Virus record (IMG/VR): IMGVR_UViG_3300043397_000074
Coordinates: 1-21,018 of that record
Direction: 5' to 3' (one strand)
Source: a virus
Length of the DNA stretch: 21,018 nt
Made by a program: the position numbers and the translations under genes. This document shows, one piece after another, positions 1 to 10,852 of this stretch. Every line of letters starts with the position of its first letter. Position 1 is the first letter of the stretch. Under the pieces are notes generated by a model. The model saw only the letters and a list, made by a program, of their open reading frames with translations. It was not told the DNA's origin and did no database searches.

Positions 1-341
1 TTCTGCACGGCGTTCTGGCGGGCGATGCGGCTGCCGATCACGGCGTCGAAGTTCTCTGGGCTGGCGCAGGCGCTCTCGCCGGTGACGGTGAAGCCGTTGC
101 GCAGGATCAGCACACAGAAGGTGAGCAGGCCCAGCGCAGCAGGCATGTTCTCGATAACGTCGGGATGCGCCCAGTCTTCCCGGCCGGTGTATTCCATTGC
201 CGTGATGGCGCCGTGGACGCCATGGCGTGCGGTGAAGTAGTGCTCGGCAACGATGTTCGCCTCAATGTCGTCCGGCGTGATGCGCGGCGCGGTGAGGCCT
301 TTGGTCTGAATCTCTTGCTCGATCTGTTCGTCGGTTGCCAT
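1..341 (-). CDS. N4 gp49 / Sf6 gp66 family phage protein, C-terminus cut by window edge
   Basis: Reading leftward from an ATG at 341, 113 codons are open to the window edge, so the C-terminus is missing. The translation begins MATDEQIEQEIQTKGLTAPR. It later carries a hydrophobic LLTFCVLILRNGF stretch followed by TVTGESACASPENFD and a basic IGSRIARQNAV end. That LKNGF-x-V-x-GESAC-x-FD-x-IG pattern is what I know from the Phage_gp49_66 family, found in N4 and Sf6 and of unknown function. The start has only a weak purine-rich leader (GAAAG) but follows the preceding gene in the same leftward operon. An attC-like hairpin ends 38 bases upstream. The family call is from memory of the motif, not a search. 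Confidence 0.8.
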   Translation of the reverse strand, partial: MATDEQIEQEIQTKGLTAPRITPDDIEANIVAEHYFTARHGVHGAITAMEYTGREDWAHPDVIENMPAALGLLTFCVLILRNGFTVTGESACASPENFDAVIGSRIARQNAVQ

Positions 342-378: not shown

Positions 379-436
379 GGCTAACTCGTCAACCAACCGG
401 ACAGCCTGCGGCTGCCGGTTATTTCAGCAGTTAGGC
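379..436 (+). repeat. attC-like imperfect inverted repeat (site a)
   Basis: A 58-base imperfect palindrome bounded by GGCTAAC (379-385) and GTTAGGC (430-436). The right word fits the integron R' core GTTRRRY. The left word is one base off RYYYAAC. The inner arms pair as AACCGG-(A)-CAGCC with GGCTG-CCGGTT around a TGC loop, leaving one A (401) unpaired in the left arm. Integron attC sites have such an extrahelical base in the first arm, which would make the plus strand the top strand. The stop codon of the 92-aa gene on the minus strand lies inside the right core word. The inner hairpin closely matches site d at 4837-4890. Confidence 0.55.
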
Positions 437-709
437 CTCTTCGTTCAGCGCCCAGTCGGCCGGGTCAAAGTCAAGCAGATCTTCGGCGTGCTCTTCAGCG
501 CCGTGCTCCCACTCGCAAACTTGTGCGAATATCGTGCCTTGCGGCATTCCCCACCGCTCTCGCAATCCAGGGTTGGCGTCCAGATATTGGTTCATTTCCT
601 CGTTGTGCTTGAAAGCCATTTGCTCTGCAACCTCCTTGCTTGGGGCTGCATGCAGGTCGTCTTGGCCCAGTACGTGGATGCACCAAAGTTTGTCGGTTGT
701 TCTGGTCAT
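431..709 (-). CDS. Small phage protein of unknown function (92 aa)
   Basis: I do not recognise a function. The ATG at 709 was chosen because GGAGAGC lies just upstream; an upstream ATG at 754 has no such site. The product begins MTRTTDKLWCIHVLGQDDLH, has a helical middle (PSKEVAEQMAFKHNEEMNQY) and an acidic tail rich in E and D. It looks soluble and cytoplasmic. The TAA stop lies inside an attC-like core word. A matching lone core word sits upstream at 805-811, so the gene has the size and boundaries of an integron-type cassette of about 430 bases. Upstream is the truncated gene at 807-884. Confidence 0.75.
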   Translation of the reverse strand: MTRTTDKLWCIHVLGQDDLHAAPSKEVAEQMAFKHNEEMNQYLDANPGLRERWGMPQGTIFAQVCEWEHGAEEHAEDLLDFDPADWALNEEA

Positions 710-804
710 CGTTGCTCTCCGCGCCCCTGCGGGCCGCTCGTTGAAAATGCCCATGCCTTCGGCATCGGCTTGTGACTGGGTCAGGCTCAGGTGCTTGCCA
801 CCAG

Positions 805-811
805 GCCTAAC
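805..811. other. Lone attC core word GCCTAAC / GTTAGGC
   Basis: A perfect 7-base match to the integron R'/R'' core, here without a convincing partner hairpin on either side. On the minus strand it reads GTTAGGC and contains the TAG that ends the truncated 25-codon gene. It may be one boundary of a cassette whose other end is site a at 379-436, or a chance match. Confidence 0.3.
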
Positions 812-884
812 CGGGCGTCACCGCGCCGCGCCACCGAATAAACGCCCATCCGTCGCAGTCGTCGCTGTATCCGCTCCTGCTCAT
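807..884 (-). pseudogene. N-terminal remnant of a conserved phage protein (25 aa)
   Basis: The ATG at 884 overlaps the stop of the upstream gene as ATGA, so the start looks genuine. The peptide begins MSRSGYSDDCDGWAFIRWRG, then AVTPG and a TAG stop. I recall the SGYSDDCDGW..IRWRGAV opening from phage proteins of roughly 130 residues that continue with a basic helix. Nothing in the following bases, in any leftward frame, resumes that pattern. The homologous part stops about four codons before the TAG, which is itself part of a GTTAGGC word. I read this as a gene truncated by rearrangement or insertion. A true 25-aa protein cannot be excluded. Confidence 0.55.
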
Positions 885-1153
885 CGCTTGTTTCCTTTCG
901 CGCCTTCAGGGCCGGCTTGGCGTTGGGAGCCATGAACAGCATCGCGCCCCTTGTCGGTTGCGCGGTACAGGTAGCCGCTACCGCCCGGGTTGTCTCGCAC
1001 GAATACGTAGCCGCTCGCCAGCAATTCGTTGAGCACTGGCATATCTGTGTGTCCCTCGCCGGCCACAAAGCAGTTGCGGTACGGTGTCCCGCCACCAGCC
1101 TTAATGCCCAGCATGTGCCGCAGCAATGCCTTGTGTCGCTCGCTCAGTTCCAT
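881..1153 (-). CDS. Small phage protein, winged-helix-like (90 aa), unknown function
   Basis: The product starts MELSERHKALLRHMLGIKAG and contains GGTPYRNCFVAGEGH, MPVLNELLASGYVFV and GGSGYLYRATDKGRDAV. The layout (an N-terminal helix, then a helix ending in ASGYV, then a hairpin ending in YRATDKG) resembles small winged-helix phage proteins in which a D/E-KG-R-A-V end closes the wing. That fold call is inference. The leader has a GGCGGG purine run before the ATG. Its TGA overlaps the ATG of the truncated gene downstream, and it follows the 52-aa gene after 24 bases. Confidence 0.75.
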   Translation of the reverse strand: MELSERHKALLRHMLGIKAGGGTPYRNCFVAGEGHTDMPVLNELLASGYVFVRDNPGGSGYLYRATDKGRDAVHGSQRQAGPEGAKGNKR

Positions 1154-1177
1154 AATACCGCCCGCCTATCTCAACCG

Positions 1178-1336
1178 TTAGTCGTCCATCGGGTTGCTGC
1201 CGTCGCCCTGCATCCACCGGATGGCGGCCTCGATGCCTTGCTCGTAGCTCATTCCCGGGAACTTGCTTTCTCCGGAGTCTGCTGCTTCGCAGCATTGGTT
1301 CAGCACATCATCCACTTCGTTGTTGCTCGGGGTCAT
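1178..1336 (-). CDS. Small acidic protein (52 aa), unknown function
   Basis: The ATG at 1336 overlaps the TGA of the 229-aa gene as ATGA, which decides the start over an in-frame ATG nine codons upstream. The product opens MTPSNNEVDDVLNQCCEAAD and ends EQGIEAAIRWMQGDGSNPMDD. It is acidic, probably helical, and has two adjacent Cys. No family recognised. The stop TAA lies in GACTAAC, a weaker relative of the core words seen elsewhere in this arm. Confidence 0.65.
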   Translation of the reverse strand: MTPSNNEVDDVLNQCCEAADSGESKFPGMSYEQGIEAAIRWMQGDGSNPMDD

Positions 1337-2022
1337 GGTTTGATCCAGTTGTTTTGCCGGCATCCGGCCGGCGCGGTTTGTTCGAGTCTGGCGGCCGGAT
1401 TTTGTAATCGCTCATGCAGCGGTTGCGCCACCGGATTGGCAGACTGCGCGGGCGCCACCACCGTCGACCCATTGACGTGCATCAGGGTCCACAGGCTATC
1501 GTTTGTCAGCCACCGGACAGCAGCGCAGTGCATCACAGCGTGCCGCTCGCCGGGCTTGCTGAGTACCCAGCCGGTGACCGTGTAGCCATTGGCCAGCAGG
1601 CCATCGCGCTTGCGGCGGGCGATGCCGACAGGGCCTGCATCAGCTTGTGCAGCGGGCACAGCCTGCGGTGCGTCCAGCGCCTGCGATGCCGTCTCGAATG
1701 CATACGCGTCCGTGGTATTCGCGGAGATGTCGCGCAGGGCCTGGCGCAGTGCGTCGCGCTCGGCTACTACATCCCGCACAAGCTCTGCGGCATCATGACT
1801 CGACCAGCTGGTGTTTTCTGGCGGGGCGCCGCGCACAGCGACAACCACAGCGCGCAAAATCTCCCCTTGCCGGATGACAGTGGATGTCAGGCCTTCGATT
1901 TCAGCTTCCAGTTCGGGGATGGTGCGCAGCATGGCGGCAGCATCCGCGCAGTCGTCAAACTCGGGGTCGTCCGATTCCAGGCGGTCGGCCAGCACTTCGG
2001 CCAGGTGCTTGCCGGTGCTCAT
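1333..2022 (-). CDS. Coiled-coil phage protein downstream of the recombination genes (229 aa)
   Basis: The ATG at 2022 overlaps the preceding stop as ATGA. Residues 1-110 are heptad-like and charged (LAEVLADRLES, IPELEAEIEGL, LVRDVVAERDALRQALRDI), so a coiled coil is likely. Residues 110-140 are an Ala/Pro/Gln-rich linker. The last 90 residues hold a small domain with GYTVTGWVLSKPGERHAVMH and VRWLTNDSLWTLMHV. The shape recalls Ea22-type accessory proteins of lambdoid early operons, but I cannot make a firm match. It is probably co-translated with the DUF1351-like gene upstream and the 52-aa gene downstream. Confidence 0.75.
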   Translation of the reverse strand: MSTGKHLAEVLADRLESDDPEFDDCADAAAMLRTIPELEAEIEGLTSTVIRQGEILRAVVVAVRGAPPENTSWSSHDAAELVRDVVAERDALRQALRDISANTTDAYAFETASQALDAPQAVPAAQADAGPVGIARRKRDGLLANGYTVTGWVLSKPGERHAVMHCAAVRWLTNDSLWTLMHVNGSTVVAPAQSANPVAQPLHERLQNPAARLEQTAPAGCRQNNWIKP

Positions 2023-3203
2023 GCCGACACCCTTTCGACGTGCTTGACCAGCGCCGCGCAGATGCGCTGGAAGTCGCTCTGGCGGTACAGCTTCGCGGCC
2101 TTGTCGGTTGCGCTGTGCACGATTCCCAGCGTGTCGGCGATGAATGCGGCCTGCAGCGTGAACCCCAGGCGCTCGCAGATGGCGCCGAGCTTGAGCGTGG
2201 CGGGCTCGTCATCGGCGGTCGGAACGGGCTGCATGGGGATCGGCGTCGGCGCCACCTGGGCCTGCTCTGCCAGCCACAGCGCGCGGCGGCGGGCATCGTC
2301 GGCATCCTGGGCGTCCTTCGCGCGCTGCTGCTCGGCGGCTGCGGCCTCTGCCTGCTGCCGCTCGAACGCAGCCCGCTCGTCTGCCAGCGCCTGGGCGGCG
2401 CGGCGCTGATCGGCCTCCAGCGCCGCAACACGCTCGCGGTCGGCCTGCGCCGCTGCCTCGATCTGCCGGCGCTCCTCGGCCAGCCGAGCGCGCTCGGCGC
2501 GCTGCTCTGCCTCGATTCGCTCTCGCTCGGCCCTGGCCGCCTCGGCTGCGACCCGCTCGCGCTCCAGCTGCTCGGCGCGCAGGCGGGCCAGTTCGGCGCG
2601 TTCGGCGGCGATGCGGGCCTGCTCGGCCTCGTGCTCGACGGCGGCGGCGTGCAGCGCCTGCAGCTTGGCCAGCACCTCGCTACGGGCGCGCTCGGCGGCG
2701 GGCAGCTGCTCCTCAAAGTCGGCATCGAACAACTCCAGCCCCTCGGCATGCTCGATGCCGGCGGCGATGTCGGCCGCCTTCGTGCCGGCCGGCAGCACAG
2801 CCAGCGCGCGGATGGCATTGATCCGGTCGGCGATGGCCTGCACGCGGCGGGCCTCGGCCTGGCGCTTGGCCTCGCGCTCGGCCTCACGGCGGGCTTCGTC
2901 GGCCTTGATCTGCTCATCAATGGGCTTCTCCAGCGCGACGATCTCGCTCGTGATGCGCGCGGCCTCGGCGTCGATCAGGCGCGAGCGCTCCAGCGCCGGG
3001 GCCTTCAGCTCCTTGCGCTTGGCCTCCAGGCCGGTGCGCAGTTTCACGAGTTCGAGCCGGGCTGCGCGCGCATCGGCGTTTCCCTTGGTTGTGGTCACAT
3101 CCCACACCACGCCAGCAAAGCGCCGGCGCAGATCGGCCAGGGCGGCGGCGGTGGGGCTGTACTCGGCCAGGGCGCTGGTCGGCGCTTCGGTGGTGGTGGT
3201 CAT
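2019..3203 (-). CDS. DUF1351-like coiled-coil protein of phage recombination operon (394 aa)
   Basis: The start is the ATG at 3203, overlapping the exonuclease stop as ATGA. Longer open frames upstream run antisense-like through that gene and are ignored. Residues 20-110 carry the pattern FAGVVWDVTTTKGNADARAA, ELVKLRTGLEAKRKELKAPA and EIVALEKPIDEQIKADE. I associate it with DUF1351-type proteins next to RecT/Exo genes. Residues 110-320 are an extended Ala/Glu/Arg coiled coil. The C-terminal 70 residues form a separate small domain (LKLGAICERLGFT, KLYRQSDFQRICAALVKH). Its function is unknown, but constant placement beside annealing and nuclease genes suggests a recombination or replication accessory role. 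Confidence 0.82.
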   Translation of the reverse strand: MTTTTEAPTSALAEYSPTAAALADLRRRFAGVVWDVTTTKGNADARAARLELVKLRTGLEAKRKELKAPALERSRLIDAEAARITSEIVALEKPIDEQIKADEARREAEREAKRQAEARRVQAIADRINAIRALAVLPAGTKAADIAAGIEHAEGLELFDADFEEQLPAAERARSEVLAKLQALHAAAVEHEAEQARIAAERAELARLRAEQLERERVAAEAARAERERIEAEQRAERARLAEERRQIEAAAQADRERVAALEADQRRAAQALADERAAFERQQAEAAAAEQQRAKDAQDADDARRRALWLAEQAQVAPTPIPMQPVPTADDEPATLKLGAICERLGFTLQAAFIADTLGIVHSATDKAAKLYRQSDFQRICAALVKHVERVSA

Positions 3204-3826
3204 GCGGCTTGCTCCAGTTGCTTGCGGTAGCCCTCGACCACGCGGTCGAAGGCCAAGAGGTCGGATTCGAGGGCGTCGATGGCGTTGTCGTCGCGGTCGA
3301 TGCGGATGATCGTGATGTGCCGGCCGATGGCCTCCAGATCGGGTGCCCACAAGATCAGGTCGCACCACTTGCGGCCGAGCAGCCACAGCGCCATGTTGAT
3401 TTGGTCGATGTAGGCGCTGAGGTCGCGCTGCACGACGGCGGTGAACAGGGTGTCGCTGCTCACCATCGTCTTGATCTCGACCATGCCGTGCGTGTCGACC
3501 AGGCCATCCACGCTCACGCCGAACCTGCCGTCGTCGGTGGTGATGAACCCAGCTTCGATGGCGACGCGGCCCGTCTCGGTCTCGTAGGCAGCGCGTGCCA
3601 GCGGCTCCTGCTCGGTCCCCATGCGCATAGCGGCATTGGCGTAGGTCGGCAGCACCCGGCCGCCGCAGCGCTCACGCGCCGTGTCCATGGCGTAGAGCGT
3701 GCTGGCTTTGCTGGGCTGGCCGTTCTTGAGCTTGTCGCGAGCGTCCCTGCAGCGGCTGCCGGTGATAACGCCCCGGCGCGCTTCGAGCCACGCGTCGGCG
3801 CCCTGGGGGTCGGTGTACACGATCAC
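3200..3826 (-). CDS. YqaJ / lambda-Exo-type phage recombination exonuclease (208 aa)
   Basis: This is predicted to be a 5'-3' double-strand DNA exonuclease that makes single-strand tails for the annealing protein encoded just upstream. The start is GTG at 3826, overlapping the RecT stop as GTGA. Visible family motifs are RRGVITGSR (18-25), MGTEQEPLARAAYE (69-82, with the conserved Glu), the active-site block GVSVDGLVD (103-111, Asp107) and VEIKT (116-120, Glu117 and Lys119), then YIDQINMALWLLGRKWCDL. The D..EIK arrangement is the PD-(D/E)XK core. Length is normal for the family. The pairing with RecT and a DUF1351-like gene is the usual phage recombination set. Confidence 0.93.
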   Translation of the reverse strand: MIVYTDPQGADAWLEARRGVITGSRCRDARDKLKNGQPSKASTLYAMDTARERCGGRVLPTYANAAMRMGTEQEPLARAAYETETGRVAIEAGFITTDDGRFGVSVDGLVDTHGMVEIKTMVSSDTLFTAVVQRDLSAYIDQINMALWLLGRKWCDLILWAPDLEAIGRHITIIRIDRDDNAIDALESDLLAFDRVVEGYRKQLEQAA

Positions 3827-4671
3827 GGAGCCGCCTCGTCAGCAACAGCCGGCGCCGTCTCCGCGTCCACCTCGGCGGCGGCCTGCTTGCATGCCTTGTG
3901 GTGCCCGTGCGCGTCCAGCTGCTTGCGCTCGTCCTTCGTGATGCCGGAGAACCACGCGGCATAGGCGGCCACACCTTGCAGGCTGGCGTCCTGTGCGGCC
4001 GTGACGAGGTCTTCAGTCGGCGGCGAGATGGCCGGCGGCGATACCTGCTCGACGGCGCCCATGTGCTTGAGTGCGGCCGGTGCATCCTCGAACTGCAGCG
4101 CTCGGCCCTCCATCTCGTCGGCGGTCGGCATTGAGCCGAGTTCCGGGAAGGCCTTGCGCAGAGCCTGGGCCTCAGCACACTTGGCGATCTGCCCGCGCGG
4201 CCGTCGCGCCCACATCGCATTGGGGGCAACGGATTTCTCCTTGCCGCCCTTCACGGCATAGTTCTCCATCCAGAACTCGACGGCCGTGAACTCGGCGACG
4301 ATGCCGGACGGCAGGGCGCGTCGGACAGTGATGCGGCACCAGTCCGGGAACGTGACAGACACCCCGCCGACGTTCTGCGTGACGTCGGGGCCGAACTCGG
4401 GAGCGCCCATCCCGGCGAACTGGCCGGTGCGGCTGGCCTGCGTGCGGTACAGGCCAATACCGGGCATCACCACGTCACGCATTGCGCCTTGCTTGCCGTC
4501 CCACATCGGCACGATGTGCACGGGCTTCAGCATGGGGTCGAGTCCAGCGGCCTTGCAATAGCCCAGCACGAGGCCGATGCTCTGCGGCTTGGCGCCAGGG
4601 TAGAGGCTGGATTCGAGGACTTCGATCAGCTCACGTTGAGACTGGTCGGCGGTGGTACGCGCGTTTCTCAT
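3823..4671 (-). CDS. RecT/Bet-family single-strand DNA annealing protein (282 aa)
   Basis: It anneals complementary single strands during phage recombination, working with the exonuclease encoded directly downstream. The ATG at 4671 is preceded by a good GAGAGGGA site; the longer open frame to 4929 has no family sequence and is rejected. Residues 31-95 hold the core pattern: YCKAAGLDPMLKPVHIVPM, VVMPGIGLYRTQASRTGQF and GAPEFGP. An RGQIAKCAEAQALRKAFPEL block follows near 180-200, which is typical of the lambda Bet-like branch. The C-terminal 80 residues are Ala/Asp/Glu-rich and poorly conserved. Length fits the family (250-300 residues). Confidence 0.93.
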   Translation of the reverse strand: MRNARTTADQSQRELIEVLESSLYPGAKPQSIGLVLGYCKAAGLDPMLKPVHIVPMWDGKQGAMRDVVMPGIGLYRTQASRTGQFAGMGAPEFGPDVTQNVGGVSVTFPDWCRITVRRALPSGIVAEFTAVEFWMENYAVKGGKEKSVAPNAMWARRPRGQIAKCAEAQALRKAFPELGSMPTADEMEGRALQFEDAPAALKHMGAVEQVSPPAISPPTEDLVTAAQDASLQGVAAYAAWFSGITKDERKQLDAHGHHKACKQAAAEVDAETAPAVADEAAP

Positions 4672-4721
4672 GTCGTCCCTCTCGGGTAGTTGATGGGCTG
4701 GCCGGTCTGCGCATTCGTCAC
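4668..4721 (-). CDS. Possible 17-codon leader peptide overlapping recT start
   Basis: A GTG at 4721 opens a frame reading VTNAQTGQPINYPRGTT, whose TGA overlaps the recT ATG as ATGA, the junction used throughout this genome. The sequence looks protein-like, but no ribosome site precedes the GTG. It could be the end of a decayed gene: the same frame continues upstream through a TGA at 4740-4742 and a 32-codon open stretch to the TAG of the 106-aa gene. Confidence 0.3.
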   Translation of the reverse strand: MTNAQTGQPINYPRGTT

Positions 4722-4836
4722 CGCGCCGGCCGCGCGATTTCAGGGAGCCCCCGCAGGGCCACTGCCGCCACCCCTGGCGCCGATGCGCTTGCCGGCGATT
4801 CGTGGGTGCTCTGTGCAGCAGTGCTTCGCAATCTCT

Positions 4837-4890
4837 GCCTAACGTCCGATCGACCGGACGCCTGCGGCGCCGGCCATCTTGTGGTTGGGC
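4837..4890 (+). repeat. attC-like imperfect inverted repeat (site d)
   Basis: A 54-base element bounded by GCCTAAC (4837-4843) and GTTGGGC (4884-4890). Both words fit the integron core consensus (RYYYAAC and GTTRRRY). The inner arms CCGG-(A)-CGCC and GGCG-CCGG flank a TGC loop, leaving one unpaired A in the left arm exactly as in site a. It overlaps the last 17 or so codons of the 106-aa gene on the minus strand, whose TAG is inside the left core word. By the position of the unpaired A, the plus strand is the canonical top strand, so the site is inverted relative to that gene. Confidence 0.55.
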
Positions 4891-5159
4891 GTCTCGTGGC
4901 GGTGCGTGACAGGGAAGAACATCTCGCACCCGCAGGCGCTGCAGTGCATCCAGTCTTCCCAGCCACCGATGCCCTTGTCATCGCCCGTGTGCAAGCGCTC
5001 GCCGTTCGCCCACTCGGTGCCACATTCAGTGCAGTTGTCGGGTGCATCAGAAGTCCCCCATTGGCCGTCGAAGTGGTCGCGCTTCGGACACAGCCGCCCA
5101 ACAGGGCGCTCGAACGGAGAGCCCACGGCAGCGGTGGGTGCGTCTTCAGGCTTGGTCAT
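4839..5159 (-). CDS. Cys-rich, probably zinc-binding phage protein (106 aa)
   Basis: The ATG at 5159 has a GGGAG site eight bases upstream and lies 26 bases after the 55-aa membrane gene. Six Cys are arranged as C24, C43-x2-C46 (NCTECGTEW) and C73-x2-C76-x-C78 (HCSACGCEMFF), with His in PVTHRHET following, so one or two zinc-ribbon sites are likely. The N-terminus is disordered-looking. The last residues (HKMAGAAGVRSIGR) are encoded by the attC-like site d, suggesting the natural C-terminus was extended or replaced when that element arrived. No function recognised. Confidence 0.75.
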   Translation of the reverse strand: MTKPEDAPTAAVGSPFERPVGRLCPKRDHFDGQWGTSDAPDNCTECGTEWANGERLHTGDDKGIGGWEDWMHCSACGCEMFFPVTHRHETPNHKMAGAAGVRSIGR

Positions 5160-5185
5160 GCGTGGGCTCCCGTTCAGCTTCGTCG

Positions 5186-5353
5186 TTACGGCTTACTGCG
5201 CATCAGGTAGCGCACGCAGTGCCAGGCTTGGCCAAGCACGTATCCGGCCAGCACGCACACGCACAACAGCAGGTCAGGCAACAGGCCGATGCGGCGTGTT
5301 GGCTGGCGGTCGCCGCCGGCCACGGGGTCGAAATTGGTGTCGAGCCATCTCAT
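5186..5353 (-). CDS. Small membrane protein (55 aa)
   Basis: The ATG at 5353 overlaps the stop of the 27-aa gene as ATGA. The product begins MRWLDTNFDPVAGGDRQPTR and then has one membrane segment (LLPDLLLCVCVLAGYVLGQAW, about residues 25-45), ending in a basic tail, YLMRSKP. The basic residues just before and after the segment leave the topology open. It is the third of three consecutive coupled genes with a membrane segment. Unknown function; lysis-type, exclusion-type or host-takeover roles are all possible and none is shown. Confidence 0.7.
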   Translation of the reverse strand: MRWLDTNFDPVAGGDRQPTRRIGLLPDLLLCVCVLAGYVLGQAWHCVRYLMRSKP

Positions 5354-5433
5354 GACAGGCACCACACAAGGACGGAGGCCCAGAACGCCACCACCAGCAG
5401 CAGCACCAGGATGCGCAGGTGAATGGCGCTCAT
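5350..5433 (-). CDS. Membrane microprotein (27 aa)
   Basis: A 27-codon gene held between two ATGA overlaps: its ATG overlaps the stop of the 118-aa gene and its TGA overlaps the start of the 55-aa gene. The product is almost entirely one membrane helix (LRILVLLLVVAFWASVLVW) with a short MSAIH start. The double coupling and clean hydrophobic sequence make a real gene likely despite the size. Confidence 0.65.
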   Translation of the reverse strand: MSAIHLRILVLLLVVAFWASVLVWCLS

Positions 5434-5786
5434 TGCGGCACCACCGGCAGGCTGGCAACGTGCCAGGCGAAAAGAAAGATCGCCGTGGCGATGACGGCGC
5501 ATGCCAGCAGCAGCCAGCGCAGGCCGGTGTCCTCGTCCAGCTCATCGAGCGTGCGGCTGCGCAACACCTCGTCTGTCGGGTGGCTCAGCACCTCGATCAC
5601 GCGGTGCAGCCGTGTGCCAGTGCGGCAGACATGCGGCGTCTTGCAGGGCTGGCGGCCTTGGTTGCACCAGCCACGGCAGGCGTGGGCGTGATCAATGTCC
5701 AGCGACTCGGTGAGCACAGGCAGGCCCGTCTCAGGGTCGACGATCACGGTATCGGCGGCCGGCGGCCACTGGCGGGCGGCGCTCAT
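5430..5786 (-). CDS. Cys-rich protein with C-terminal membrane anchor (118 aa)
   Basis: The ATG at 5786 overlaps the preceding stop as ATGA. Near residues 37-53 is a Cys/His cluster, HAHACRGWCNQGRQPCKTPH followed by VC, with four Cys. It resembles the CNQGR-type clusters of small early phage proteins and could bind zinc. The C-terminal 25 residues form a hydrophobic helix (LRWLLLACAVIATAIFLF, then AWHVASL), so the protein is probably tail-anchored with the Cys domain in the cytoplasm. Function unknown. It heads a run of three coupled membrane-segment genes. Confidence 0.75.
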   Translation of the reverse strand: MSAARQWPPAADTVIVDPETGLPVLTESLDIDHAHACRGWCNQGRQPCKTPHVCRTGTRLHRVIEVLSHPTDEVLRSRTLDELDEDTGLRWLLLACAVIATAIFLFAWHVASLPVVPQ

Positions 5787-6250: not shown

Positions 6251-6402
6251 TGCACAATGCGATGGTGGGCGGGAAGAACAAGACCGCGGTCAGGAACGCC
6301 ACGCCGCCCGAGTTCCGCGACGTGCTGCTTTCGATAGCGCGCATGACGCACAACGTTGCCGATAAGCGGCGCGGCACGGTACTCCGTGACGGGTCCGCTT
6401 GA
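6250..6402 (+). CDS. Small basic protein at start of rightward arm (50 aa)
   Basis: An open frame from the ATG at 6250, with an alternative ATG at 6262, gives a basic product containing MVGGKNKTAVRNATPPEFRD, VLLSIARMTHNVADKRR and GTVLRDGSA. No ribosome site precedes either ATG. The first lies within the operator region, so a leaderless or shorter version is possible. The C-terminal 18 or so codons are encoded by the attC-like element at 6348-6417. It could be the remnant of a control gene disrupted when the downstream insert arrived. No repressor motif is visible. Confidence 0.45.
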   Translation: MHNAMVGGKNKTAVRNATPPEFRDVLLSIARMTHNVADKRRGTVLRDGSA

Positions 6403-6417
6403 TTGGCTGGGTTAGGC
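6348..6417 (-). repeat. attC-like imperfect inverted repeat (site e)
   Basis: A 70-base imperfect palindrome. On the minus strand it begins with GCCTAAC (perfect RYYYAAC) and ends with GTTGTGC (one base off GTTRRRY). The arms pair through AAGCGG/CCGCTT and CACGG/CCGTG, with an unpaired A directly after AAGCGG in the first arm. AAGCGGAC is a sequence I associate with the first arm of many attC sites. It overlaps the end of the 50-aa gene and is followed on the plus strand by the lower-G+C two-gene insert, which ends at another GCCTAAC word (7064-7070). Confidence 0.45.
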
Positions 6418-6442: not shown

Positions 6443-6721
6443 ATGAGCGAAGACAAGATTGCGACCGCGCTATTGGACGAACTATGGGACGCTGGCTTCA
6501 AGCTAAACGGCCCGGAGTGCGACAAGGTAGACGAGATTGGGCGCCGCATTGAAGGCGAACGCGCCGTTTTGGTTGAATTGCTTGGCGAGTGCTACAACAT
6601 AATTGCCAGCATTGAACCTGAAGACGGCGACGAGGCAGAACAATTGCGCGCCGTGCTTGATGCAATTGAGCGCACGCAACCTGGGAACGCGCAAGGCTGC
6701 GCGCAAGGGGAGCTGCTGTGA
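6443..6721 (+). CDS. Acidic helical protein on lower-G+C insert (92 aa)
   Basis: The ATG at 6443 has a strong GAGAGGA site. The product begins MSEDKIATALLDELWDAGF and continues through two helices (EIGRRIEGERAVLVELLGE, CYNIIASIEPEDGDEAEQL). It is acidic and soluble with no recognised family. Codon use is visibly more AT-rich than its neighbours (TTG, ATT and AAT codons are common), marking recent acquisition together with the next gene, to which it is coupled by a GTGA overlap. The pair is framed by GTTAGGC upstream and GCCTAAC downstream. Confidence 0.75.
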   Translation: MSEDKIATALLDELWDAGFKLNGPECDKVDEIGRRIEGERAVLVELLGECYNIIASIEPEDGDEAEQLRAVLDAIERTQPGNAQGCAQGELL

Positions 6722-7059
6722 CCTACCGACCGACAGAGTTTCAAGTGAACAACAGCGGCGGAGTTGAGTGCGACATTTTTATTGACCCGGAGACGCTTAA
6801 GCCTGGAGACGTGGCGTTTTTTGTAATCCAGCAGGACGCGGAGCGGATCACGGTTTCGCTGGAATGTTTAGAGCATTTGCTGGCGTGTGCCAATGAGTTG
6901 CTGCAAGCGCGACGCGAAACAAGAAACGACGCACACAGCATGGCGGATTTAAGCGAGCGCACAAACCAGCTCAAGCGCTGCACCAAAAAACTGCAAGCGC
7001 AAGGTATGGCCTACCCGCGCACATGCGCTGAGTGCGGCCTTGGTCCGTGCCGCGCCTGA
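6718..7059 (+). CDS. Protein with C-terminal Cys knuckle on lower-G+C insert (113 aa)
   Basis: The start is GTG at 6718, overlapping the previous stop as GTGA, with AGGGGAG upstream. The N-terminus begins MTYRPTEFQVNNSGGVECDI and reads as a beta-rich domain (FIDPETLKPGDVAFFVIQQD). A helix (LLACANELLQARRETRNDA) and a C-terminal YPRTCAECGLGPCRA with three Cys follow. I recall RTC-x-x-CGLGPC ends on small accessory phage proteins of unknown role; metal binding is plausible. Base composition is clearly lower in G+C than the flanking genes, so it was probably acquired as a unit with the 92-aa gene. Confidence 0.75.
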   Translation: MTYRPTEFQVNNSGGVECDIFIDPETLKPGDVAFFVIQQDAERITVSLECLEHLLACANELLQARRETRNDAHSMADLSERTNQLKRCTKKLQAQGMAYPRTCAECGLGPCRA

Positions 7060-7062
7060 ACA

Positions 7063-7082
7063 CGCCTAACGTGTTTTAGGCG
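7063..7082 (+). repeat. Perfect hairpin with attC core words
   Basis: CGCCTAA (7063-7069) and TTAGGCG (7076-7082) pair perfectly around a six-base loop, four bases after the 113-aa gene. It starts with the perfect core word GCCTAAC (7064-7070). It has no strong T run, so termination would be weak. It may be a collapsed attC-like site or an unrelated attenuator. Confidence 0.4.
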
Positions 7083-9372: not shown

Positions 9373-9647
9373 CCAGCCGCGAAACCGCCGCAGCCGCCCC
9401 GGCGCTGCCTCAGACCTTCGCCGCCGCGCTGCGCGCGCTGGCCGACCAGGCCGAGCTGGCCGAGCAGCAGGCAGCCGAGCTGCTCAGAGAGCACGCCTGG
9501 ATCTACAGGCGCGCCGGAGAGCGGAACTGGGTGGCGCACCAGGACCGCATCCAGCAGGGCGCGATGGAGCACCGCACGACCACGCTGGAGCGGCCGGACG
9601 GCGCCCCCGTGCAGTACCTGCCGGCTGAGGGTACCGATGGGGCATGA
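9369..9647 (+). CDS. Helical phage protein closing the second early block (92 aa)
   Basis: Starts in an ATGA overlap. The product is mostly one Ala/Glu/Gln helix (FAAALRALADQAELAEQQAA, ELLREHAWIYRR), then a polar end (ERNWVAHQDRIQQGAMEHRT). No family recognised. It is the last gene before the terminator at about 9675-9700, so the run from the Cro-like gene to here reads as one transcription unit. Confidence 0.68.
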   Translation: MTSRETAAAAPALPQTFAAALRALADQAELAEQQAAELLREHAWIYRRAGERNWVAHQDRIQQGAMEHRTTTLERPDGAPVQYLPAEGTDGA

Positions 9648-9674
9648 TCGGCCGCCGCAGGCCACCACGTCCGC

Positions 9675-9700
9675 AAGGCCCGCACCGCGCGGGCTTTTTT
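9675..9700 (+). terminator. Rho-independent terminator
   Basis: GCCCGC (9678-9683) pairs with GCGGGC (9689-9694) around a five-base loop and is followed directly by six T (9695-9700). A-T and G-T pairs at 9675-9677 extend the stem. It lies 28 bases after the 92-aa gene and separates the two rightward blocks. Confidence 0.8.
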
Positions 9701-9747
9701 GCGCCCGTCTGTTTGGCTCCGCACACAGCCGGCATATTTTCGCTGCG

Positions 9748-9780
9748 TGTGCTGGCGCACAGGCAAAACATCAATACAAT
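9748..9780 (+). promoter_or_regulatory. Promoter with overlapping dyad upstream of replication block
   Basis: A -10 TACAAT (9775-9780, 5 of 6) lies 24 bases before the ATG at 9804. No good -35 is present at the usual distance. Instead a perfect TGTGC-TGGC-GCACA dyad (9748-9761) covers that place, as an activator or autoregulator site would. The HTH protein encoded next is a candidate binder. Confidence 0.45.
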
Positions 9781-9803
9781 AGATCAACCAAACAAGGAGC
9801 AAC

Positions 9804-9995
9804 ATGGACCCCAAGACGAGACCCCATGGCAAGCGCGCGAAGGGCTGGACCTCGCCCCAGGTGCTCGAAGGCCTGCGCCTGGTCGAGCAGGCCGGCATGA
9901 GTTGGCGCAAGGCTGCCAAGCAGGCCGGGTGCAACCCGTCCTCGATGTGGGCCGCGCAGAAGCGCCTGGAGGGCCAAGCATGCCGAACCGAGTGA
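9804..9995 (+). CDS. Small helix-turn-helix protein (63 aa)
   Basis: The ATG at 9804 has an AAGGAG site with ideal spacing, one of the best in the window. The product is basic at the start (MDPKTRPHGKRAKGW). A resolvase-type helix-turn-helix follows at about residues 22-56: EGLRLVEQAGMSWRKAAKQA, GCNPSSMWAAQKRLEG. With only one DNA-binding motif it is probably a transcriptional regulator, perhaps of its own promoter at 9748-9780. It overlaps the replication gene by 16 bases, tying their expression together. Confidence 0.8.
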   Translation: MDPKTRPHGKRAKGWTSPQVLEGLRLVEQAGMSWRKAAKQAGCNPSSMWAAQKRLEGQACRTE

Positions 9996-10852
9996 TCAGA
10001 GATTCGGTGCTCGACTCGGATCGGTATGTCGGCTTGACTCACGACGCCGAGCGGCTGCTCTTTCTTGAGCTGCTGCTCATGGCTGACGATTTCGGTCTGG
10101 TCCCGCTCAACTTCGCCTTTCTGCGCAGACGCGCCAGCCCGTGTGCTGGTCGGTCGGAAAAGCAGGTGAACGAGATGGTGGAGCAGCTCGTCGAGCGTGA
10201 TCTTGTGCGCCTTTACCGGTCCGGCAGTGCGTCGCTGTTCGGCTACATCCCGCGATTCGGCAACGTGCCGCGAGCCAAAAAACCAAAGTGGCCGCTTCCT
10301 CCTGATCAGCCTGCGTTCAGTGAAATCAACAACTTAGCGCGTTCTTGCGCTGCAAATGTTCGCACATGCAATGCAAATGCACAGCATCTGCAGACAAATG
10401 AACCCGAAACCGAAACCGAAACCGAAACCGAAACCGAAACCGAAACCGAAACCGAAACCTATCCTACCAAGGGGGGAGAGTGTTTCAAGGGTAGTGGCGC
10501 TCAAGCGACTGGAGACACGCCGCGCAAGCGCAGCGCCAACACCACAGGGTCACGCCTGCCGTCTGACTGGGTTCTGAGCAGGGAACTCGGCGAGTGGGCG
10601 ATGCAGGACTGCGGCATGACCCGCGAAGCCGTCAAAGCAGAGGCTGAGAAGTTCGCCGACTACTGGCACGGGGTGGCCGGCGCCAAGGGCCGCAAGGCCG
10701 ATTGGGCGGCCACATGGCGCAACTGGTGCCGCAATGCCAAGCCGGCAACAACAACCGCAGGGCGCCAGCCCATGCGCAAGGCTGACGCGCTGACGGCCGG
10801 CAACGTCGAGGTGATTCGTCGATACATGGAGAGGGCCGGGACCAATGAGTAA
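9980..10852 (+). CDS. Phage replication initiator, O-like (290 aa)
   Basis: The start is ATG at 9980, preceded by GGAGGG; the longer open frame upstream belongs to noncoding DNA and the HTH gene. Residues 1-100 form a winged-helix initiator domain (RDSVLDSDRYVGLTHDAERL, LFLELLLMADDFGLVPL, EQLVERDLVRLY, YIPRFGNVPRAKKPKWP). A linker with (ET)9 at 143-160 follows. The last domain (residues 185-290) has LPSDWVLSRELGEWAMQD, KAEAEKFADYWHG and GRKADWAATWRNWCRN. I know this arrangement from phage replication proteins that bind the origin and recruit host helicase. The origin may lie inside this gene as in lambda O. The loader partner is probably the next gene. Confidence 0.85.
   Translation: MPNRVIRDSVLDSDRYVGLTHDAERLLFLELLLMADDFGLVPLNFAFLRRRASPCAGRSEKQVNEMVEQLVERDLVRLYRSGSASLFGYIPRFGNVPRAKKPKWPLPPDQPAFSEINNLARSCAANVRTCNANAQHLQTNEPETETETETETETETETETYPTKGGECFKGSGAQATGDTPRKRSANTTGSRLPSDWVLSRELGEWAMQDCGMTREAVKAEAEKFADYWHGVAGAKGRKADWAATWRNWCRNAKPATTTAGRQPMRKADALTAGNVEVIRRYMERAGTNE
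10351..10379 (+). repeat. Direct repeats TGCAAATG x2, candidate origin iterons
   Basis: TGCAAATG occurs at 10351-10358 and 10372-10379, 21 bases apart (two helical turns), in the less GC-rich linker region of the replication gene. A further ACAAATG follows at about 10394. Together with the adjacent hexamer array they could form the origin, by analogy with lambda. Confidence 0.35.
10405..10458 (+). repeat. Tandem hexamer repeat CGAAAC x9
   Basis: Nine exact copies of CGAAAC, encoding (ET)9 in the replication protein linker. Because the unit is two codons, copy-number changes keep the frame. No variation occurs between copies, so the array is young or homogenised. It may be an iteron array or simple slippage. 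Confidence 0.9.

Follow-up and report, generated by a model that had tools for sequence, protein, structure and literature searches.

The window analysed here is a whole 21,018-bp IMG/VR virus record, which is organised as two operons that diverge from a point near 6.2 kb. It encodes a terminase, the single-strand annealing protein RecT and YqaJ, together with a portal gene related to the portals of Manatee Spring phages. Four integron-type attC sites are predicted in the window, with E values ranging from 1e-14 to 2e-6 under two covariance models. The first model, R1, was built from 15 bacterial-genome sites only, and the second and broader one, R2, from 38 bacterial sites. The sites and genes that matter for what follows are listed below.

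3 to 341, minus strand: 5' part of a Phage_gp49_66 family gene (PF13876, E 4.6e-23), downstream of attC site 1 in transcription order and running off the contig end
379 to 436, plus strand (the attC top strand): predicted attC site 1 (R1 59 bits, E 1.1e-14; R2 57.9 bits; bottom-strand fold z -3.37)
431 to 709, minus strand: small phage gene whose TAA stop lies inside the box GCCTAA^C of attC site 1
3826 to 4671, minus strand: RecT single-strand annealing protein gene (PF03837, E 1.9e-24), between attC sites 1 and 2
4837 to 4890, plus strand: predicted attC site 2 (R1 34.7 bits, E 1.3e-7; R2 32.3 bits); the cassette content of a near relative, L067, changes just past its crossover
4839 to 5159, minus strand: cassette gene of 106 aa with two CxxC-type motifs, starting in attC site 3 and stopping in attC site 2
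4885 to 5185, no strand assigned: 301-bp predicted cassette between two crossovers, from the comparison with L067
5096 to 5192 (97 nt), plus strand: predicted attC site 3 (R2 37.4 bits, E 9.6e-8; bottom-strand z -3.39); L067 diverges here
6348 to 6417, minus strand: predicted attC site 4 (R2 32.2 bits, E 2.4e-6; bottom-strand z -4.64)
6443 to 6721, plus strand: small gene with no known family; its start is 26 nt past attC site 4 in transcription order, a spacing typical of phage cassettes

The original prediction had named two attC-like hairpins, at 379-436 and 4837-4890. Both are real and their coordinates were verified, while the sites at 5096-5192 (plus) and 6348-6417 (minus) had been missed. 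Site 1 reads GGCTAAC...AACCGG-A-CAGCC TGC GGCTGCCGGTT...GTTAGGC and site 2 reads GCCTAAC...CCGG-A-CGCC TGC GGCGCCGG...GTTGGGC. In each, boxes of the RYYYAAC and GTTRRRY kinds surround imperfect inverted repeats, and a lone A is left unpaired in the first arm of the plus strand, as had been described. The core words are likewise present at both sites, with the qualification that the first box of site 1, GGCTAAC, has one mismatch to RYYYAAC and is an imperfect example. It was also correct that each site lies at the 3' end of a small gene; what had been overlooked is that the polarity of the attC is opposite to that of those genes, site 1 opposing the minus-strand genes on its two sides. Site 4 sits in the rightward operon and is inverted relative to its plus-strand genes. 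The R' box departs from the consensus at sites 3 and 4. Sites 2 and 3, about 200 bp apart, form a CALIN, a group of at least two close attC with no integrase, and sites 1 and 4 are single.

The gene at 4839-5159 matched no Pfam or PHROG family. Its last codons (KMAGAAGVRSIGR) derive from attC site 2, and at its other end the loop and arm of site 3 supply the start codon and roughly the first 21 codons of this minus-strand frame, as well as a Shine-Dalgarno-like GGGAG. The crossovers that would delimit the unit are G^TTGGGC between 4884 and 4885 at site 2 and G^TTACGG between 5185 and 5186 at site 3. A relative of the gene at 431-709 (58% identical) at L008 has no adjoining attC; this shows only that the gene also occurs without attC.

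Two further features of the window were observed. Directly after the gene at 6718-7059, a perfect palindrome, GCCTAA-CGTGTT-TTAGGC (7064-7081), resembles a minimal remnant of both attC outer boxes from which the hairpin is absent. At 10400-10465, a GAAACC repeat lies in frame and encodes the (ET)n tract of the ORF at 9644-10852.

Assignment of the sites to a bacterial attC type

The original prediction had argued that core words, paired arms and an extra base were unlikely to coincide twice by chance. This argument is weak: when the window was dinucleotide-shuffled, a naive scan combining core words with paired arms and a bulge still returned 0.8 hits per shuffle, and it was dropped as a significance test. 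Because such a scan is not significant by itself, the statistical case rests on the covariance models used in its place. A scan of bacterial genomes for the hairpin and core words gave 17 stretches, all of which share the layout CYTAAC-spacer-TCATTCC-ACCGGAC-GCC-loop-GGC-GCCGGT-GAATT-spacer-ACGTTAGGC. In the source bacterial loci R1 found further sites in regular arrays, and an integron integrase scored above the curated cut-off in 5 of 16 of those bacterial genomes. Across the family of the Polaromonas locus, attC of this type are present in 78 of 101 genomes. Applied to viral sites, R1 gave 60-75 bits, with the boxes and the position of the extrahelical base as in bacterial attC.

Strand polarity is apparent in the R1 scores, which are 59 bits on the plus strand against 29.8 on the opposite strand for site 1, and 34.7 against 21.2 bits for site 2. 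This score gap, together with second-arm bulges in the folded bottom strands, places the extrahelical bases on the L'' side. The folding check that had been proposed gave good bottom-strand folds with single-base bulges in the second arm at sites 1, 3 and 4, two such bulges being seen at site 3; site 2 is unconvincing, folding weakly alone (z -0.87) and only slightly better with its flanks (z about -1.4). An Rfam scan matched no family to the hairpins, and a BLAST search of the attC consensus against phage isolates found no match. Judged by these sequence models, the hairpins are integron attC sites of a type found in Burkholderiales and other Proteobacteria.

The attC reading of sites 1 and 2 passed the proposed covariance-model check under both R1 and R2, and near-identical relatives lend it support, with recombination breakpoints at G^TT as predicted. 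The alternative once offered beside it, that the hairpins are a repeated family with no link to integrons, is unneeded, since the same hairpin and core spacing occur in bacterial cassette arrays, several of them in genomes with an integron integrase. The original prediction was also right that phage attC have been the subject of surveys: phage CALINs, that is, attC clusters without an integrase, are described in the text of Qi et al. 2023 (PMC9892861), and the present arrays are like them in this respect. According to the same text, IntI1 recombined 5 of 6 tested phage attC, with bottom strands preferred. The window RecT served as the query for related phage loci, and attC clusters lie near about 10 of the 69 loci so retrieved (L067-L135). 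Such clusters may therefore be located preferentially in the recombination region.

Orientation and anatomy of phage cassettes

In integron cassettes the gene usually, if not absolutely, runs in the direction of its attC. This usual direction is not found in viral cassettes. With a codon-usage model, the cassette gene was placed opposite to the attC top strand in 72 of 73 cases on viral contigs, and in all 67 of a second viral sample retrieved with another attC pattern, against 28 same and 3 opposite in bacterial arrays by the same method. Choosing simply the longest ORF gave 80 sense and 13 antisense genes in bacteria; in viruses it gave a weaker contrast (67 opposite and 20 same, and 51 versus 34 in the second sample), a consequence of the frequent antisense ORFs of GC-rich DNA. 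A homology control was run because GC-rich DNA holds long antisense ORFs. The viral ORFs antisense to attC matched 68 PHROG and 17 Pfam families and the viral sense ORFs matched no PHROG or Pfam family, whereas among bacterial ORFs compared with Pfam the sense frames matched 31 families and the antisense frames one. The genes of phage cassettes, as predicted from coding signal and homology, are opposite to the attC top strand almost without exception.

The window follows this rule in both of its operons, with sites 1 to 3 on the plus strand in the leftward operon and site 4 on the minus strand in the rightward one, and L002 and L134 have the same mirror arrangement. The exception is one viral cassette, at L117, which was called classical. 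Among published phages placed with the model, PH101 and MW202573 have attC that run opposite to the annotated genes, and TJE1 has attC in the classical direction. The coding model misread one bacterial locus (L263/L293). The apparently inverted bacterial array at L263 (genome G108) was considered as a prophage and rejected, as the coding model had chosen antisense-looking frames there and the region contains one element in repeated copies, with no phage genes recognised. L293 (G108:C1:400000-419999) is bacterial chromosome in which attC lie between three identical copies of an ORF-bearing repeat (390-codon frame), and its genome carries an intact IntI at C1:725460.

In transcription order the attC comes first and its gene follows. 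Of 71 cassettes, 28 have their stop codon at one fixed offset, supplied by the TAA of RYYTAA^C, and 32 have their start codon within their own attC. Because start codons fall inside attC, unrelated proteins have attC-encoded leaders in common, such as GPVERxVRP and KVRLTDGLG. Along the direction of transcription, a unit is made up of the crossover AA^C, the hairpin, a ribosome-binding site and start codon, the gene, and a stop at RYYTAA^C, from which the next unit starts. The start codon is often in the hairpin loop, and a shared leader peptide is then encoded by the attC. These units resemble integron cassettes with attC of the Xanthomonadales/Burkholderiales type in their hairpin, boxes, extrahelical bases, crossover and small single-gene make-up. 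They differ in that the phage gene and its attC are on opposite strands and that the gene begins next to or within that attC. The sampled arrays (L071, L005, L007, L094 and L051) contain many DNA methyltransferases, as well as Lar, Gp157, RNA ligase and Acb2/Tad1-like domains, contents that fit anti-defence or early functions.

Cassette swaps between related phages

One view of exchange is given by L067, which is 99.85% identical to the window over 2208-4896 and 100% identical over 5184-5573 and differs in between. At the left junction, in site 2, the two stay alike through GTTGGGC and for 6 more bases (GTCTCG). On the right the change is abrupt at G^TTACGG, to the left of which they are unrelated. 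In place of the 301-bp cassette of the window, L067 carries about 1.09 kb, with attC found by covariance model at 717-775 and 1029-1097 and a third, long attC read by eye near 389-489; by our reading this insert comprises three other cassettes. The L067 gene that replaces 4839-5159 carries the identical tail encoded by site 2. A second pair, L034 and L035, is near-identical apart from a 525-bp cassette that was either gained or lost. The junctions are exact at G^TTAGGC, that of L035 consisting of the first attC of L034 up to the G, joined to the sequence that follows the second. L149 and L162 are identical for 7,183 bp and then diverge at the crossover. Among the 179 interior breakpoints of all related viral contigs, 41 are no more than 15 nt from an attC crossover, whereas such positions account for 1.1% of the sequence; the count takes both contigs of each pair and so is not made of independent events. 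L127 and L125 were rejected as an empty-site pair, their divergence being too great for a clean junction.

By their sequence, both the 301-bp unit of the window and the 525-bp unit of L034 are small, circularisable units of one or a few genes with one attC, as cassettes are. These alignments show that cassettes are gained, lost and replaced at the predicted attC crossover G^TT between close phage relatives. Cassette-sized segments are also common to otherwise unrelated contigs, as in L003 and L196, whose sole common segment in the stretches compared is 327 bp long, 99.7% identical and bounded in L003 by two crossovers. Separately, L009, another phage locus, which has a relative of the gene at 4839-5159, carries at 2969-3064 the same 96-nt attC and leader (MTKPEDAPTAAVGSPFERPVGR) as the window at 5096-5192, followed by a different gene body.

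Three other explanations for these arrays were weighed. Host cassettes could have been brought in by illegitimate or homologous recombination and no longer recombine, a scenario in keeping with phages that lack an integrase, with the degenerate site 2 and with the illegitimate capture discussed in the text of Qi et al. We regard it as improbable, since near-identical phages are distinguished by whole cassettes that change exactly at the crossover, no sampled viral cassette is highly similar to a bacterial array (154 bp at 74% at best), and host cassettes are sense to their attC whereas phage cassettes are antisense. Slightly less probable still is a phage-specific hairpin system that has converged on attC and is served by a recombinase other than IntI (an HUH nuclease, XerCD or an unknown enzyme). 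The consistent inversion and the attC-encoded leader do suggest a separate lineage, but a bacterial attC model scores viral sites at 60-75 bits, their boxes and the position of their extrahelical bases agree, the crossover falls at G^TT as in integrons, and the PH101 attC, inverted by model placement, was recombined by IntI1 according to the text of Qi et al. 2023. That the hairpins are intergenic RNA hairpins or terminators, with swaps made by homologous recombination in conserved spacers, is very improbable: the hairpins are intergenic within operons and attC have been proposed elsewhere in the literature as weak terminators, but nothing common remains left of G^TT at the right junction of the window and L067, so that the exchange is not bracketed by homology, and hairpin loops that hold start codons, the absence of an Rfam match, and core boxes and an asymmetric bulge that a terminator does not need all argue against it.

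A proposed separate pool of cassettes and its likely recombinase

Integron attC with inverted cassettes, exchanged at the crossover, thus remain the preferred reading, and the question becomes which enzyme would act on them. The integron integrase model TIGR02249 had no match in the window record, which with no intI is not a complete integron, and none above cut-off in 32 other attC-bearing virus records, several of which are fragments; the model is loose and also picks up XerC-like proteins in all control genomes. A phage-encoded integrase was set aside, none having been found in the 33 virus records. As the phages are without IntI and 78 of the 101 family genomes carry this attC type, a host integrase is the simplest source, and the recombinase is likely host IntI acting in trans. 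Such an integrase would act on the folded bottom strand, and natural breakpoints are seen at G^TT.

How cassettes first reached the phages may be related to secondary insertion of the attG type (Loot et al. 2024, as cited in PMC11023631 and PMC12901181). The first cassettes may have entered through non-classical (attG-like, G^WT) sites. The likeness lies in the non-consensus right halves of some terminal phage sites (GTTACGG, GTTGTGC and GATGTGC), but the phage signal is a trend only, 12 of 30 terminal R' boxes having the consensus versus 53 of 89, and it was not retained as an attG signature. Once established, inversion may keep the phage cassette pool largely apart from the host pool, because host cassettes inserted in the operon of a phage would end up antisense, and phage cassettes inserted in an array of the host would lie antisense to its Pc promoter.

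That phages contain attC was already known; what appears to be new is that the cassettes are inverted, with the attC leading, and that they are naturally swapped. The text of Qi et al. 2023 reports no inversion rule, attC-encoded starts or natural cassette turnover. In the open-access literature we found neither systematic inversion nor natural turnover of cassettes described, and no further report on inverted or viral integron cassettes. Taking the sequence comparisons together, it is very probable that attC of the Burkholderiales and other Proteobacteria type bound inverted cassettes in the early operons of this phage and of many further environmental ones, and that these cassettes are swapped at G^TT, probably by host IntI. 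With less assurance, but as the more plausible view, we propose that phages keep a pool of their own, made up of inverted cassettes in which the attC is at once a recombination site and a translation start region with a leader peptide, and that this pool is shuffled by host integrases and separated from the host pool by orientation.

Early genes of phages turn over fast, and many of them counter host defence. Inverted cassettes offer a site-specific route by which such genes could be neatly exchanged. Among the cassette genes sampled here, DNA methyltransferases are numerous, and a Lar-type restriction-alleviation protein and an Acb2/Tad1-like domain also occur. The consistent inversion provides a simple signature by which arrays of this kind can be found, as well as a testable reason for the rare mixing of phage and bacterial cassettes. 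If a host integron integrase does the work, a machine of bacterial adaptation would be exploited by the parasites of bacteria.
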